This document shows, in pieces, positions 1,308-8,228 of a stretch of 35,576 bases of DNA. The notes beneath the pieces were generated by a model. The model searched no databases. It was not told where the DNA came from and worked only from the letters and a program-made list of their open reading frames with translations. The number at the start of each line of letters is the position of its first letter. Within the stretch, counting starts at the first letter, position 1. Position numbers and translations under genes: made by a program. This stretch comes from a virus: IMG/VR virus record IMGVR_UViG_3300048597_000618, positions 1 through 35,576 of that record; one strand, 5' to 3'.

Positions 1308-1937
1308 TCACGCTGACGCCTTCTGGGGGCTGGTCAATTCGCGCCATATCACCTGCGCACGACGGCGCACCGTGCTGGCATCAGGCGCCGGATCGACGCC
1401 CCTCGCATCGAACCAATCCTGCATGTCCCGCACAAGCTCCGAGAGGGTTGCTGGAATGCCGCGGTCATGAACCCTGCGCGCCAGTGCGCCGTAGAACGCG
1501 TCCCACTCGTATTTGGGGGGTGCGCCCGGTCCAGGCGGCCGGCGGCTCTTTCCCGTGCCGCTCGCCGGACCGAGCTGATGCGCCTGTTCGAAGCGCTCCA
1601 ACTCGGCTCTGGCGACCAGGACATCGCCCGCCGTGATTTCCATGCCGGTGGCCATGTTCGGGATCGTCTCCCAGTTCTCTCTCGCCGAAGGCCCCTTGAA
1701 ACGGCGCAGTGTCACGGATGGAGATGCGCCTTCGCGCCGGAACAGCCCGAGCACGTCGGCGCCCGCGATCTCCACAAGGCCCCACACGGTGTGGCCGTCA
1801 GCCGTTTCGATCGACGGCACCACCGCGGACAAGGCCAGCGCTCCATCGATCGCCCAGGCTATGATATCCGCCGGCGCCACCGACCAGCGATAGGACAATT
1901 CGGTGACCGGATGAAACGGGCGCGGCGGCAGCAACAT
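1308..1937 (-). CDS. Hypothetical protein, possible DNA-binding C-terminus
   Basis: A 209-aa protein of unknown function and the last gene of the leftward lysogeny block. The N-terminal half (about 1-110) is an acidic/hydrophobic domain starting near a YRWSVAP segment. A Gly/Pro/Arg-rich linker at about 125-140 joins it to a C-terminal helical segment with PPKYEWDAFYG, a DMQDWFDARG helix and STVRRRAQVIWREL. That last part resembles a winged-helix or HTH tail seen in other alphaproteobacterial mobile-element proteins; this is recollection, not a search result. An AGAGGAA Shine-Dalgarno lies about 8 bases before the ATG. It is 53 bases downstream of the XRE gene and probably cotranscribed with it. 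Confidence 0.75.
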   Translation of the reverse strand: MLLPPRPFHPVTELSYRWSVAPADIIAWAIDGALALSAVVPSIETADGHTVWGLVEIAGADVLGLFRREGASPSVTLRRFKGPSARENWETIPNMATGMEITAGDVLVARAELERFEQAHQLGPASGTGKSRRPPGPGAPPKYEWDAFYGALARRVHDRGIPATLSELVRDMQDWFDARGVDPAPDASTVRRRAQVIWRELTSPQKASA

Positions 1938-1990
1938 GTCGAAATTCCTCTGAACGCAGCGTCCTCCTCGCGACGCCGCTGGATCCTCAA

Positions 1991-2272
1991 CTAACGCGGA
2001 AGGCGGATGCGCGATCGCCGATAGGCGTGAACCACTTCTCGCAAATCACGCTGCATATCCGGCGGCAGCCGGCCGGCTTCCACGAAGAGATCGTCGAGCC
2101 GCACGCCCAGAATGGCCGCGGCGCGCTCGACGAGATCGTCACGCGGCGCGTTCTCAAGATCGCGTTCAACCCGCGACCAATAGGCCGGGGAAATCCCCAG
2201 GCGCTGGGCGAAATCATTGAGGCCGATCCCCTGTTCCTCTCGCTTGGTGCGAACTTCAGCTCCGAAAGCCAT
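1991..2272 (-). CDS. XRE-family HTH transcriptional regulator
   Basis: A small (93 aa) Cro/C1-type DNA-binding protein and a likely component of the lysogeny switch. The HTH spans about residues 5-60: a KREEQGIGLNDFAQRLGI helix pair, the turn, then the recognition helix SPAYWSRVER and the stabilising region APRDDLVERAAAILGV. There is no C-terminal peptidase or oligomerisation domain of the LexA/CI type, so it may be controlled by the metallopeptidase encoded just upstream. The start is supported by a GGGGAGGG Shine-Dalgarno about 7 bases before the ATG, which begins at the TGA of that upstream gene. The 15-base gap indicates translation from one mRNA. Confidence 0.9.
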   Translation of the reverse strand: MAFGAEVRTKREEQGIGLNDFAQRLGISPAYWSRVERDLENAPRDDLVERAAAILGVRLDDLFVEAGRLPPDMQRDLREVVHAYRRSRIRLPR

Positions 2273-2287
2273 GGCCTGTCCCTCCCC

Positions 2288-3061
2288 TCAGCGAGCCGCG
2301 ACGAGGCGGTGCTTGCGGAGGCGCACGGTCATAAACGCCGGGCTGACGCCGAACTCTTCTGCCAGCGCGTCGGTGATGGCCTCAATGACGTCCCAGCCGT
2401 GCTCAAAAGCGGTCAACATGGGTTTAGCGCCAGCATCGTCCCACCCCCGCAGTTTTATACCGTGCCGACCTGCCTCGCGGCGCAGTGCCCTCATCAAAAG
2501 GTCGCGTGGCGCGAGAAAGCTGCCCATGAATTCGTCAGCGCGCCATTCGCGCCAGTCGATCGCTTCAGCGCTTCGTGCGGCGTCCTTCGGCGGCGTGAAC
2601 AATTTGCCCCCGTTTGATCGGTGCCTGACGGAGGTGCCCGACGCCAAAGTCCGAAAACTCCGCCGCTCCGCGCGCGCCAAGGCAGCTGGCATATCGAACA
2701 GCGCATGCCCCAGTTCGTGCGCTGCGGTCGAGCGCGCGAGCTCTGCGTTGTCGGCCAAGAGATCGACGTTCAGGCTGATCATCACGACGTTGGGCGCTGC
2801 GGGGTCATGTTCGCACACGCCCAGAACAGGCGCCCCGCTCCGATCGTGAACAGCGTGATCGCGGTCCCAGCTGATCTCGAAATCGCGGCCGTTCACGGCC
2901 ATCCGCCGCGTCCGCCTGATCAGTTCGTCGATGTCGAGACTCCGTGCCGCGTAGCCGAAGATTCGCTTCCGGCTTTCCGACGCCAGGCGATCGATGGTCA
3001 GGCGAGTGAGGCGGCCGGGCTCTCCGATCTCTGAGCAGGGATAGTTGATCTCGACGGTCAT
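2288..3061 (-). CDS. ImmA/IrrE-family zinc metallopeptidase
   Basis: A 257-aa putative zinc peptidase of the ImmA/IrrE (DUF955) family. Known members cleave partner XRE repressors, as in ICEBs1 ImmA/ImmR and Deinococcus IrrE/DdrO. The HExxH motif is H115-E116-L-G-H119 in TAAHELGHALFD. A third ligand is likely E172 in WREWRADEFMGSFLAP, which matches the family's E-x-x-A-[DN]-x-F pattern. There is no signal peptide, so it is probably cytoplasmic. It is the first gene of the leftward operon, followed immediately by the XRE gene, so the natural inference is that the XRE protein is its substrate and induction occurs by repressor cleavage. The order (peptidase before repressor) is the reverse of ICEBs1. 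Confidence 0.88.
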   Translation of the reverse strand: MTVEINYPCSEIGEPGRLTRLTIDRLASESRKRIFGYAARSLDIDELIRRTRRMAVNGRDFEISWDRDHAVHDRSGAPVLGVCEHDPAAPNVVMISLNVDLLADNAELARSTAAHELGHALFDMPAALARAERRSFRTLASGTSVRHRSNGGKLFTPPKDAARSAEAIDWREWRADEFMGSFLAPRDLLMRALRREAGRHGIKLRGWDDAGAKPMLTAFEHGWDVIEAITDALAEEFGVSPAFMTVRLRKHRLVAAR

Positions 3062-3349
3062 GGCGCCTCCCGACGGCCTTAAACTGTCAATGAAACGCTC
3101 AACAGAGTGTTCTTACTATGTTCGCTTTGTGCGCGGAGTCGAGTCCTATTTCTGCCTGGGCGTAAAGAATCGTCCTCGGCGAGCAGATGGCCGGCGTTGG
3201 CGGACAGGCGAACCGCTTGATTCGCAATATGAAAAGCGGGTTTAGGCGGCTCTGAATTTTTCTTTCGGCCTGTTTGTGCCTGCGTCATCCCGCCTTGGCG
3301 CTGCTTTCCTCCAAGCCATGCCGCGGTTCGCGACGGCAGGAGAAGTTTC
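3062..3349. promoter_or_regulatory. Divergent early/lysogeny control region
   Basis: A 288-base gap between the leftward immA-like/xre operon and the rightward early operon, so promoters for both directions and repressor operators should lie here. It is visibly more AT-rich than its surroundings around 3080-3130. A short inverted repeat, AACA-GAG-TGTT, sits at 3101-3111 and is a possible XRE half-site pair. I could not find a convincing -35/-10 pair in either direction: a leftward TTGACA at 3090-3085 lacks a -10 at proper spacing. No credible gene lies inside. Confidence 0.5.
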
Positions 3350-3586
3350 ATGGATGCTCAACACGTAGCGGTCGAAGCTGGGAGCGGCTCGGCGTTGCTC
3401 GACGGCTGGCTCAGCCGCGCCGGCCTCGCGGCAGAACTCGGAATCTCCGTCGATACGCTGGCGCGCTGGGAGACAAGGCGGATCGGGCCGCCCTGCGTGC
3501 GCATCGGCCGCAAGGTCCACTACCGCGCCGCGGCGATCCGCGAATGGCTGATCAGCCAGGAGCGCCGGAAGGCGGGCCAGAAATGA
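3350..3586 (+). CDS. Excisionase-like / AlpA-type HTH protein
   Basis: A 78-aa MerR-superfamily winged-helix protein of the excisionase/AlpA type. Residues about 18-70 hold the domain: LSRAGLAAELGISVDTLARWE (helix-turn-helix), then the wing GPPCVRIGRKVHYR and a final helix AAIREWLISQE, the arrangement typical of HTH_17 excisionases. As first gene of the rightward early operon it may be the recombination directionality factor for the integrase, or an early activator; sequence alone does not separate these. An AGGAGA Shine-Dalgarno lies about 6 bases before the ATG. The stop overlaps the next start (ATGA at 3583-3586). Confidence 0.85.
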   Translation: MDAQHVAVEAGSGSALLDGWLSRAGLAAELGISVDTLARWETRRIGPPCVRIGRKVHYRAAAIREWLISQERRKAGQK

Positions 3587-3795
3587 GCGCGCGGCGTACC
3601 GACAACCGGGCAGCCGTCCGGCGGGCCATGGCCGAGGCGCGGGTGATCGACTCTTTCCGAAAGCGCGTGATCACGCGTGAACAGGCGCGTACTGGCCTCG
3701 CCTCGCTCGGCCACGACTATGAAGAGATCGACCAGATCCTGGCCGCTGCGCTGGAGCCCTCCGCTTCGGATCGAACGCGCGAGATCGCGGCGTGA
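3583..3795 (+). CDS. Small hypothetical protein (early operon)
   Basis: A 70-aa, mostly helical, soluble protein of unknown function starting at an ATG that overlaps the upstream stop (ATGA). The same frame stays open to about 3274, but the coupled ATG at 3583 is the better start because the upstream part is antisense or shadow to the control region and the HTH gene. It is rich in Arg and Ala at the N-terminus, then has a segment ITREQARTGLASLGHDYEEIDQIL that looks like a short helical hairpin. It ends in a GTGA overlap with the next gene, so translation is coupled on both sides. Confidence 0.7.
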   Translation: MSARRTDNRAAVRRAMAEARVIDSFRKRVITREQARTGLASLGHDYEEIDQILAAALEPSASDRTREIAA

Positions 3796-4136
3796 CAGTC
3801 GTATCTCAGGCCACAGAGCCGGCCGATGAAGTCGCCGACGGGAATGCCGAACGGCGCGAGCCGCGGCTTCCCTGGCTCGCCATAGAAGATCAGGTGCTTC
3901 GCAATCTGCATGGACTTGGTATTCCGCTCTCCAAGATTGCCGCCGCGCTGGGTCGCAGCGTTCCGGCGGTGAACTATCGGCTGGCCCGCCTGCGGGCGCA
4001 GACTGCCATTCGCGAGCGGCAGGCACGCGACGCCGATCTGGAAAGCCGTCGGCCGCAAAGGCCGGCCTCAACGACAGCGTTGCTGATGGGCGATCCGGCG
4101 CCTGGCCGTTCTGCGCTTGATCGAACGAAAAGCTGA
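3792..4136 (+). CDS. Small putative HTH DNA-binding protein
   Basis: A 114-aa protein starting at GTG 3792 in a GTGA overlap with the preceding stop. Residues about 32-72 (VLRNLHGLGIPLSKIAAALG, then SVPAVNYRLARLR) read as a three-helix HTH of the Myb/SANT or sigma-region-4 type, with recognition helix VPAVNYRLARL. The C-terminal 40 residues are Arg/Pro/Thr-rich and probably disordered. Its position between the excisionase-like gene and the primase suggests an early transcription or replication-control role. The exact family is not recognised. Confidence 0.7.
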   Translation: MTVVSQATEPADEVADGNAERREPRLPWLAIEDQVLRNLHGLGIPLSKIAAALGRSVPAVNYRLARLRAQTAIRERQARDADLESRRPQRPASTTALLMGDPAPGRSALDRTKS

Positions 4137-4148
4137 AGGCCGCGAGCG

Positions 4149-5084
4149 ATGGACGGCTGGCATTCCGCGCGAACGATCGTCGGCCGGCTGGGTGGACGGT
4201 GGCACGGCCGTTCAGGCTCATGCCCCTGCCCTGCGCATGAGGATCGCACGCCGTCGCTCTCGGTTTCTGAAACGCGGGATGGCCGCGTGCTGGTCCATTG
4301 CTTCGCCGGGTGCTCCCAAAGCGCCGTCATCGACGCCCTGCGTCGCGCCGGTCTCTGGGGCGGCGGCGAGCCGACCGTCGATCCGTCGTACCCGGCACAT
4401 CTCACCTCACCAGCCGACGGGATGCTTCACCGCGATGAGAGATCGCGGCGGCAGGTAGCGCAGCGAATTTGGGATCAAGCGAGGCCAGCAGCTAGCACCC
4501 TCGCGGAACATTACCTCCGCGCGCGCGGCATTCATATTCCCATGCCGGATCAGCTTCGCTTCCATACCGGCCTGAGGCATCCAACTGCGCGGCCGACCTT
4601 CCCGGCGATGGTGGCGCGGATCGCCGACGAGAAAGGCTTCTGCGCAGTCCAGCGCACCTTTCTCGCCGCGGATGGGAAAGCGAAGGCGCCGGTCGATGAT
4701 GCAAAGCTCGGCCTTGGTCCGATGGGCGCGGGCGCAGTTCGCCTGTTCCCCATTGGCGACATCCTCGGTCTTGCCGAAGGGATCGAGACTGCGCTCTCGG
4801 CCTGTCAGCTCTATAGTCTGCCGGTCTGGGCCACACTTTCCGCGGCGCGGCTTGCCCGTATCCAGATCCCGTCCCAAGTGCGGCAACTGACGATCTTCGC
4901 CGATGCCGGCGAAGTTGGCCGCCGCGAGGCCTTCGCGGCCGGCGACGCCTACGAGCATCGCGGCTTCTCGGTCGAGATCATCACGCCGGCGGCGCACCAC
5001 GAGGACGGCGGCGCCGACGACTTCAACGATATTGTCCAGGCGCACAGGGACGGGCGGCTGCCTGATCGACAGGGCAGCGTATGA
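4149..5084 (+). CDS. CHC2 zinc-finger / Toprim primase
   Basis: A 311-aa phage primase that makes RNA primers for prophage replication. The N-terminus carries a CHC2-like zinc ribbon: C25, C27 and H30 in CPCPAHED, then H50, C51 and C55 in VHCFAGCS. After a helical middle (about 95-190) comes a Toprim fold: [11 protein letters not shown] with catalytic-type E210, then [10 protein letters not shown] (D252) and DDFNDI near 290-294. The usual second aspartate of Toprim DxD appears as D252-A-G, so metal binding may be non-canonical. The ATG at 4149 follows the previous stop by 12 bases. The gene overlaps the ATPase gene by ATGA at 5081-5084, so the two are translationally coupled, as expected for a primase/helicase pair. 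Confidence 0.9.
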
Positions 5085-6307
5085 GCGATACCGACGCCGT
5101 CGATCCGCGCGCGGCCCGGCCGCGACCGCTTGTAGTCCGCAGCGCCGGCTCGCTCGAAGGCAAGCCCGTTCCAGAACGCGACTGGCTGGTGCCGTCAGTC
5201 CTCGTCCGCGGCGGTGTCTCGATGCTGTCGGGCGCTGGAGGGATCGGCAAATCCCTGCTCTGCCTCCAATTGCAGGTCGCCGCAGCATTGGGCGAACCGT
5301 GGCTTGGGATCGCCCTGCCGGAGCCCTTCTCCTCGTTCGGCTTCTATTGCGAGGACGATGAAGATGAGGTCCATCGGCGTCTCTACGGCATCTGCCGTCA
5401 TTACCGCTGTTCGTTTTCCGATCTCGACGACCGCGTGCGGTTCGCATCGCGCGTTGGCGACGCCAACGAGCTGATGAATTTCTTCGCGCGGGGCAGCGCC
5501 AAACGTACAGTCCTGCTCAGCCAGGTCGAAGAGCAGGTCCGGATCTGGGGCTCACAGCTCGTCGTCATCGACACGGTCGCGGACACGTTTCTCGGCAACG
5601 AGAATATCCGCCCTCAAGTGCGCGCCTACGTCACCGCCATGCGGCGGATCGCGATGATCAACCGCGGCGGCGTGATCATCACGGCCCATCCCTCCCGGGC
5701 GGGCCTTGCCGATGGCACGGGTCAGTCTGGCTCGACGGGCTGGGAGGGTTCGGTCAGAAGCCGCCTCTACTTCACACGGCCGCAGAACTTGCACGCGGAG
5801 AGCGACGGGGCCGGGAGCAAGGCCGGGGCCGAGGACGAACGATCCGAAGAGCGCGTTCTCAAGACCATGAAGTCGAACTATGGCCCGCCTGGGGAGGTCA
5901 TTCGGACAACTTGGCAGGCCGGCGTGTTCGTTCGCATTGACCAAGTCGATAGGAACTCCCTCTTCGACAAGCTCGATCACGACCGGCGGATACTTGACGC
6001 AGCGGCCTATCTTGTCGCCCGCGGGTCGATGCTGCCCGCCGATCCCAACGCCCGCACGAGCCTCGTCGTCGTCGCGCGCAACCTGCCCGTATGCAGCGCG
6101 ATCTCCTGGAAGGCGGCGCTTGCCGCCCAGGAACGGCTGATTGAACAGGGCAAGCTTGTGATCGTCGAGCTCGGCCCACGCTCAAAGCGGCGCCGATACG
6201 TCCGCCCCGCGCATCTCAGATACCCGGGCGAAGACGACGGTGCGGCCACCGCTAGCGAGCCTGCACCCGCGCTCGATTTTTCAGGAGGAGAGAACCATGA
6301 GCAATGA
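5081..6307 (+). CDS. RepA/AAA_25-type ATPase (putative replicative helicase)
   Basis: A 408-aa RecA-fold ATPase of the RepA/AAA_25 group, probably the replicative helicase or helicase-like partner of the upstream primase. The Walker A motif is GAGGIGKS (residues 51-58). A catalytic acidic cluster FYCEDDEDE lies at 88-96. Walker B is LVVIDT, with D164, followed by VIITAHPS as sensor/motif 3 (198-205). [14 protein letters not shown] at about 218-231 matches the conserved GS..W...SR.R..L region of RepA-like hexamers. The C-terminal 130 residues probably form a winged helix, ending in a polar tail. Its last 11 bases overlap the start of the next ORF. The candidate origin lies immediately downstream. 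Confidence 0.9.
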
Positions 6308-6554
6308 CCCAAGCTGCGCCGGATGCTCGACACGCCGGAGCGATCCGCCCCCGAAAACCTTCCGACCCCCCTTCCGACGGGTCGGACAACCCCTTCCAAC
6401 CACCCCCCGTCGGAAGGCTCAAAACCTTCCGACGGTCCTTCCGACCCCCTGCCAACCTCCTTCCGACCCCATTCCGACGGGGTCGCGCGCGCGCGCGATA
6501 TATAAATATCAACCACCGAGTCTTCTTGAAGACCGCAAGGCGAGGCCGGCATGA
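6297..6554 (+). CDS. Proline-rich small ORF spanning the iteron array
   Basis: An 85-aa ORF with a strong AGGAGGAG Shine-Dalgarno 6 bases before its ATG. It starts inside the end of the ATPase gene and ends in an ATGA overlap with the DUF6362 gene, so initiation and coupling signals support translation. After [15 protein letters not shown] the protein is a low-complexity, Pro/Thr/Arg-rich chain (PPPKTFRPPFRR, LPTTPRR, NLPTVLPTPCQPP) that simply reflects the repeated CCTTCCGAC DNA. No domain is recognised. It may serve mainly to carry ribosomes across the origin to the next gene, or be an origin-embedded protein in the manner of lambda gene O. Other frames are also open here because the repeats lack stops. 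Confidence 0.55.
   Translation: MSNDPSCAGCSTRRSDPPPKTFRPPFRRVGQPLPTTPRRKAQNLPTVLPTPCQPPSDPIPTGSRARAIYKYQPPSLLEDRKARPA
6358..6533. repeat. Iteron array and AT-rich tract, candidate replication origin
   Basis: CCTTCCGAC occurs exactly at 6358, 6370, 6425, 6437 and 6459, and inverted (GTCGGAAGG) at 6409-6417. One-mismatch copies are at 6392 (CCTTCCAAC) and 6470 (CATTCCGAC), and a two-mismatch copy at 6448. Start-to-start spacing is 11, 12 or 22 bases, close to one or two helical turns, so all direct copies face the same side of the helix. A (CG)7 tract follows at 6484-6497, then twelve A/T-only bases at 6498-6509 and a perfect inverted repeat GTCTTC-TT-GAAGAC at 6520-6533. This is the layout of an iteron origin with an unwinding element, lying directly after the primase and ATPase genes. 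Origin function is inference. Confidence 0.65.
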
Positions 6555-7012
6555 GCGGCCCAGCCATGAGCCCGACCGATATCGAGGCCCGGTTCGAGGA
6601 AGCCACCGCGACGCTCAAGAAGCTTCCGGGCATCCGCATGGGCGGCTTCTTCTCGACGTGGCCGGCGATCATCCGCACCGCGGCCGAGACCTACGCGCAG
6701 GACCGGACGCTCAAGGTCCGCATTCCGCCGACCGCCCAGGCCATCTCGCGCATGGAGGAAACGTTCGACTGGCTCGGCTGGCTCGACGCCGACGATACCC
6801 GGCTCGTCTGGTTGCGCGCTGAAGGGGTGCGCTGGAAGCCCATCTGCTGGCAGCTTGGGATTTCGCGGGCAACGGCCTGGCGACGCTGGGCGGCGGCGAT
6901 GATCGAGATTTCGCGGCGAGCGGCGCGGCAATCTCAGCCAATAACCCGGTCGGGCACCGCGCCCAGAGGGTCCGGACTCGCCAACCCAAGTCGCCGCACT
7001 GGGACAAGCTGA
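6551..7012 (+). CDS. DUF6362 family phage protein
   Basis: A 153-aa protein matching the DUF6362 family common in alphaproteobacterial prophages. Recognisable signatures are the LPGIRMGGFFSTWPAIIR block (about 24-41), PPTAQAISRMEETFDWLGWL (about 58-78), DTRLVWLRAEGVRWKPICWQLGISRATAWRRW (about 82-113). The last segment reads as an HTH with recognition helix SRATAWRRWAAA, so it is likely a DNA-binding protein, perhaps an early-to-late regulator or origin binder; the function is not established. The C-terminal 30 residues are polar and probably disordered. It starts in an ATGA overlap with the ORF on the iteron array and is the last gene of the early rightward operon. Confidence 0.85.
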   Translation: MSGPAMSPTDIEARFEEATATLKKLPGIRMGGFFSTWPAIIRTAAETYAQDRTLKVRIPPTAQAISRMEETFDWLGWLDADDTRLVWLRAEGVRWKPICWQLGISRATAWRRWAAAMIEISRRAARQSQPITRSGTAPRGSGLANPSRRTGTS

Positions 7013-8102: not shown

Positions 8103-8208
8103 GCGAACCTCCGCCAGCGACAGACTGAAATTCAAGGTTCGCAGTTCGCGGGTTCGCGGTTCGCAGGTTCGCACCCGGCGCCTCGCGAACCTTTGCTGGT
8201 TGCGAACC
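8103..8208. repeat. GGTTCGC tandem and inverted repeat cluster
   Basis: Five head-to-tail units occupy 8136-8173 (GGTTCGCA, GTTCGCG, GGTTCGCG, GTTCGCA, GGTTCGCA), giving an alternating 15-base super-period. Inverted copies GCGAACC lie at 8103-8109, 8185-8191 and 8202-8208. The last direct unit and the copy at 8185 can pair as a 7-bp hairpin with a 12-base loop, and 8198-8208 is itself a palindrome (GGTT-GCG-AACC). The cluster covers the region 20-126 bases before the ParB-like start, so an operator or a ParB-type binding site is a reasonable inference. Confidence 0.65.
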
Positions 8209-8228
8209 TTCGCACTCATGGAAAGCCA

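Follow-up and report, generated by a model that had tools for sequence, protein, structure and literature searches.

Where does the replication of this phage start, and which of its proteins recognizes the place? The window (the whole stretch of DNA analysed, a viral record of 35,576 bp) contains terminase, portal, protease and major head genes, so it comes from a tailed phage. Its replication region has, in this order, a primase-like gene, an AAA_25 ATPase gene, a cluster of short repeats and a DUF6362 gene. The primase-like gene (4149–5084, plus strand) codes for a zinc ribbon, DUF7146 (Pfam, 6e-32) and Toprim_3 (Pfam, 2e-16), and matches the DNA primase family PHROG 510 (6e-40). The ATPase gene (5081–6307, plus strand; Pfam AAA_25, 1e-28) overlaps its end and is the one that we propose to code for an origin-binding initiator helicase. 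The gene after the cluster (6551–7012, plus strand) codes for a DUF6362 helix-turn-helix (HTH) protein (Pfam, 2e-35). We consider, from comparison of related sequences, that the repeat cluster behind the helicase gene is very probably the replication start site of the phage. We put at roughly three in four the probability that it is an iteron origin bound by the helicase of the phage itself, the sequence of the repeat being chosen by one loop of that protein, the wing of its C-terminal winged helix.

The repeat cluster of the window

The array spans 121 bp (6358–6478, plus strand) and starts about 50 bp past the ATPase stop. It contains five exact direct copies of CCTTCCGAC (starting at 6358, 6370, 6425, 6437 and 6459), one exact inverted copy (6409–6417) and three degenerate copies, at 6392 (CCTTCCAAC), 6448 (CCTGCCAAC) and 6470 (CATTCCGAC). 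The steps are 12 and 22 bp in the first group and 12, 11, 11 and 11 bp from 6425 on, i.e., the copies are helically phased. Between 6297 and 6554 one 9-mer is present six times, a number reached in none of 2,000 dinucleotide shuffles (maximum 3), and the repeat-pair count of the array region was 53 against a shuffle mean of 1.6. Over the whole window, with one mismatch allowed, the same 9-mer was found 18 times for 13 expected, which is not unusual; the exceptional feature is its clustering, not its number. Behind the array there is a (CG)7 tract (6484–6497), matched by an alternating C/G-rich tract at the equivalent place in the nearest relative (L027), then 12 bp of A/T only (6498–6509), a candidate unwinding element, and the inverted repeat GTCTTC-TT-GAAGAC (6520–6533). 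A previous sequence-only reading of this DNA had described the copies, their spacing and these three elements correctly, and the window does have the order that it gave (iterons, unwinding element, palindrome). The cumulative GC skew of the window fell steadily with no turn at the array and was uninformative.

The window has a second repeat cluster (8103–8215), made of GGTTCGCAGTTCGCGGGTTCGCGGTTCGCAGGTTCGC and inverted GCGAACC copies, located ahead of ParB-N-like and DNA methylase genes. Its spacing is 7–8 bp, versus 11 bp in the array treated here, and no such cluster was obvious at the equivalent place in L027.

The array DNA had also been taken to be both origin and gene. An open frame of 85 codons does cross it (6297–6554, plus strand), preceded by AGGAGG and overlapping the DUF6362 gene by ATGA (at 6551), but the ORF list, the Pfam search and the relatives indicate that it is probably not a conserved gene. 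No Pfam match was found for it, and L027 does not keep it, its array lying behind a different HTH gene. The units have no stops in any frame, so some open frame crosses 48 of 75 arrays, and this suffices to explain the open frame of the window; a coding function was consequently rejected. The likeness to lambda that had been suggested does not extend to the lambda type of origin, in which the iterons lie inside the initiator gene, since here the array is past the ATPase stop. Could the repeats be simply the by-product of a repetitive small protein, or a functionless repeat expansion? The frequency of open frames over the arrays, in the window and in 48 of 75 relatives, speaks for it. However, the 11-bp period breaks the reading frame of units that are stop-free in all frames anyway, the ORF is neither conserved nor assignable to a family, and position, spacing and covariation with the ATPase wing (see below) are conserved while the sequence is not. 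We regard this explanation as extremely improbable.

Arrays behind the ATPase gene of relatives

With the ATPase as first query we found six viral relatives. The gene was followed by an array in every one, with a different unit in each. Larger scans provided 80 chromosomal loci, nearly all alphaproteobacterial, plus further viral loci. The loci include L064 from Nitrobacter vulgaris and L042 from Azospirillum lipoferum. The ATPases were reduced at 70% identity to 120 clusters, an array being accepted when it had more repeat pairs than all 100 shuffles of the sequence of its own locus. Using one unit-finding method, an array was found at no more than about 300 bp from the ATPase stop in 91 of the 120 clusters, against 3 for the control, a stretch inside the ATPase gene; the figure of 91 is a lower estimate, because extraction of the best 8-mer as unit fails in some loci, e.g., those with displaced arrays. 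Twenty-six of the 120 had no detectable array directly behind the ATPase gene, the array being displaced in some of them. A small gene displaces it in L027, L057, L068, L140 and L160, all loci that fail the array test. Only in L181–L183 is the array inside the ATPase frame, L181 being likewise a locus that fails the test. There, about 416 bp before the ATPase stop, a CCGCCCAAACC array, a C-rich tract and an A/T palindrome all fall within the open frame, so that the putative origin DNA would be read as protein. The sequence-only reading had proposed an iteron origin beside the helicase gene and had named relatives with the same ATPase and no repeat as the observation that would count against it. 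The comparison favours the origin, with the array at the equivalent place in those 91 independent clusters and, in several others, displaced or in the 3' end of the ATPase gene.

The geometry was also maintained. The strict maximum of local repeat density coincided with the ATPase stop in 115 of the 160 loci with enough sequence. Pair distances peaked at 11, 22, 33, 44–46, 55–57 and 66–68 bp, half of all nearest same-strand neighbours were spaced by 10–12 bp, and the arrays had often 6–11 copies. The units themselves differ by lineage. Among them are CTTCCGAC, TTCCAACGG, CTTCCACC, TTCGCAC, CTTCATCCCC, GGTGCAAC, GCGATCTCC and TGCGGAAGT, together with TTCCAAC in L028, TTCGCGGAC in L038 and AAGTTGGC in phage WO, the 11-bp spacing being kept. 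Position, phasing and multiplicity are conserved but the word is not, as would be expected if a protein binds the site and the two change together. Judged from this comparison, the repeats of the window are one example of a widespread design. We found no published description of such arrays in the open-access literature, although this is not proof of novelty.

Three relatives deserve a separate comment. A distant one, L024, has (1433–4381) a fused primase-helicase and behind it a cluster of TTCCTG repeats, then an A/T tract and DUF6362, i.e., the gene order of the window in an A/T-rich phage. In L027 what looks like a one-base frameshift, due to decay or to an assembly error, interrupts the ATPase frame at about 4609. 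L164 has, about 690 bp past its ATPase, tandem repeats of the GGTTAGCCCCGTGAA type in steps of 15 bp, which are probably an opposite-strand pentapeptide-repeat gene and not an origin array.

Other elements were found beside the arrays. The IHF consensus WATCAANNNNTTR occurred 32 times in 24 of the 120 loci, for 0.74 expected from shuffles. A C-rich box, C4-(A/T)3-7-C4, was present in 52 of the 120 loci (1.6 expected), always on the coding strand, located at the last repeat or about one turn past it, and about 100 times denser beside arrays than elsewhere in the same loci (e.g., L165, L168 and L118). Its forms are mostly CCCCATACCCC, CCCCTTATACCCC and CCCCTATAACCCC, that is, CCCC-(ATA, TTATA, TATAA)-CCCC, and in many loci without it an A/T palindrome takes its place; our guess would be a primase start or a single-strand binding site. 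The window has neither an IHF consensus site nor a C-rich box, which counts against our reading of its array. Hairpin-forming DNA (z < -2) was detected just after 44% of the arrays and in 11% of controls. On the other hand, an A/T tract as strong as that of the window appeared in 17% of relatives against 10% of control stretches, so the unwinding element of the order proposed for the window is only weakly general; hairpins and the C-rich box are the more general neighbours.

These elements bear on another possible role of the repeats, that of a copy-number or incompatibility element that titrates the initiator and limits replication, the start being elsewhere in the replication region. Several plasmids do use iterons in this way, and in P4 there is a second region of repeats, crr. 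However, the IHF sites, hairpins and C-rich or A/T boxes that adjoin the array argue for a start site, and most helicase genes had a single such array in their vicinity, which makes such a role, in our opinion, very unlikely.

The ATPase and its wing

By both profile and fold, residues up to about 285 of the ATPase are closest, among solved structures, to RSF1010 RepA, a hexameric replicative helicase (profile match to 1G8Y, 1.5e-13; best Foldseek match 1NLF, 3.8e-14, with an AF2 model of pLDDT 87.7), and this core matches the RSF1010 RepA, RadA and DnaB folds. In the AF2 model it is followed by a C-terminal winged helix (residues 294–376; 5960–6208, plus strand) with helices at 294–313, 328–332 and 343–355 and strands at 359–364 and 371–376, a domain that folded alone reached a pLDDT of 91.7, i.e., high confidence. 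No Pfam match was found for the domain, Foldseek retrieved for it from the PDB generic winged helices only, none with E below 0.001, and the P4 alpha structure was absent among its 50 best matches. On profile and predicted fold, the ATPase is an RSF1010 RepA-type RecA-fold helicase that has acquired a C-terminal winged helix.

Winged helices frequently belong to regulators, and it is to generic regulators that the isolated domain is most similar. The array could then be a cluster of operators, through which transcription of the replication or downstream genes is controlled by some phage protein, perhaps the ATPase with its winged helix, and the origin would be elsewhere. The location of the array between co-oriented genes would suit this, and IHF serves promoters too. 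However, the phased copies are many and lie behind rather than before the helicase gene, the array is present whichever gene follows, and the winged helix is fused to a replicative-helicase fold when a regulator need not be a helicase. Transcriptional control alone appears to us an improbable explanation.

Information about the reader came from comparing, in 61 loci with clear arrays, the similarity of the units with the similarity of stretches of the ATPase. With the helicase core allowed for, the winged helix explained unit similarity (partial r 0.25, p 0.0005, with permutations that account only partly for shared descent); with the winged helix allowed for, the core explained nothing in these 61 loci. 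A sliding window of 14 residues gave one sharp peak at residues 361–374, in the wing, with a partial r of 0.50 (max-statistic p = 0.001; no window in any of 1,000 permutations exceeded 0.31). Beyond 352–383, the region that overlaps this peak, no window was significant. The signal persisted for pairs with dissimilar cores (r 0.41–0.47), within clades, when units were permuted per clade, and once the remainder of the winged helix had been taken out. The test was repeated on 31 new independent loci, of which 22 had clear arrays. There the wing, specified beforehand, gave r 0.29 (p 0.0015), and 360–373 came out once more as the best window, although that scan alone reached only p 0.05 after correction. 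The recognition helix showed no covariation of its own, which is unusual for a helix-turn-helix domain. On this covariation we propose the wing (residues 361–377; 6161–6211, plus strand) as the specificity element.

The pairing can be followed by eye. Wings ending in HG.GAK.RSHI go with GGTGCAAC (L090, L116, L261), DRKPTTV with GCGATCTCC (L052, L242) and GP.SR.V.Y with CTTCATCCCC (L059, L220). Among the nearest relatives, GP.SKR is found with TTCCGA units (window, L027, L039, L118, L042, L210) and GP.SRR with TTCCAAC, TTCGC or TGCGAAAC (L028, L201, L038, L029, L200), a K/R rule that extends over these 11 loci; L030 and L043 are exceptions that fit it less than cleanly. The unit word changes together with one small loop of the helicase, the wing, and this suggests recognition of the origin by the helicase itself. 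The covariation is a correlation, not proof of contact, and it points to one loop, placed where a winged helix can touch DNA.

The sequence-only reading had preferred DUF6362 as binder of the iterons, and here the data go against it. When DUF6362 was used as query, most of the relatives fetched (L002–L022, L025 and L026) had no array beside the gene, most arrays lack an adjacent DUF6362 gene, and the unit covaries with the ATPase wing, so this candidate was rejected. In L002–L022 and others DUF6362 is found in a different, stable neighbourhood, after a gene ending in a conserved DDNEADALALLDWAI motif that we take to be Holliday-junction resolvase-like. In a wider version the array is an origin whose iterons are bound by a protein of the host or by a separate phage protein (DUF6362 or some other small HTH protein), in the way of RepC in RSF1010, and the ATPase is loaded later. 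RSF1010, whose RepA is the closest solved relative, has been described with separate polypeptides (PMC4234260), and HTH genes do adjoin some arrays (window, L027, L024). However, the genes adjoining the array vary by lineage, no small DNA-binding gene was seen consistently linked to the arrays, and only the ATPase wing covaries with the unit. We consider a separate reader unlikely and retain the helicase itself as the probable one.

Proposed mechanism and known systems

An initiator helicase would be the most economical account and is our best reading, its first part supported by the comparison and its later steps deduced. We infer that the ATPase binds the array, loads itself and opens the DNA, and that the array acts as origin. 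Copies of the winged helix would bind repeats one helical turn apart, and the helicase subunits would be set side by side at the origin. The DNA near the array would open, with help from IHF bending in some lineages, the helicase would encircle a strand, and the linked Toprim primase would start synthesis. If the wing picks the repeat sequence, each lineage would have its own origin word.

We hold at even odds a broader proposition: that a large family of alphaproteobacterial phages, plus Wolbachia phage WO, uses a RecA-fold replicative helicase as its own initiator, without separate initiator or loader, the winged helix reading downstream iterons and the wing being an evolvable recognition code with dozens of distinct origin words. 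If true, it would explain how replication starts in a big and little-studied set of temperate phages, and their origins could be found by a simple rule, as the DNA behind the helicase gene. There would also be a natural series of protein loops with their matching DNA words, as material for deriving a wing-to-sequence recognition code, and a candidate origin for phage WO.

The RepA of phage WO (HQ906665, KX522565) is a related ATPase followed at once by a AAGTTGGCAA/AAGATGGCAA array and a (TA)n tract, but it differs from the window in having the length of a fused primase and ATPase and another unit. In both records (L033 and L034; KX522565 and HQ906665) the AAGTTGGCAAGATGGCAA array and (TA)n directly behind RepA are at 4188–4405, a candidate origin that is apparently undescribed, the word "iteron" being absent from PMC9203015.

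RSF1010 shares with the window the RepA helicase fold and a separate primase (RepB' in RSF1010). However, its RepA has 279 aa, ends where the winged helix of the window ATPase begins and has no such domain. RSF1010 needs a separate initiator, the iteron binder RepC.

P4 alpha is one protein with an SF3 helicase. Its winged helix binds repeats at ori, and unwinding and priming follow (PMC4234260). The window system has in common with it short repeats, a Toprim-type primase and a replicative helicase with a winged helix at its C-terminus, but its primase and helicase are separate genes and its core is of the RSF1010 RepA/RadA/DnaB type, not SF3, so by analogy it would work like alpha without being filed as a member. 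SaPI Rep and SCCmec Cch2 have AAA+/D5-like helicases, not RecA-fold ones. In them the iterons are directly downstream of the helicase gene and are read by the C-terminal domain (PMC7581432). The layout, helicase gene and then iterons, is the same as in the window, as is the proposed logic of a C-terminal reader, and it is by layout that we liken them; helicase type and hosts differ. P4 alpha and SaPI Rep would thus be functional analogues of the window ATPase with another type of helicase and, if our reading is true, the initiator-helicase plan of P4 and SaPI would have been invented also in a different helicase family.
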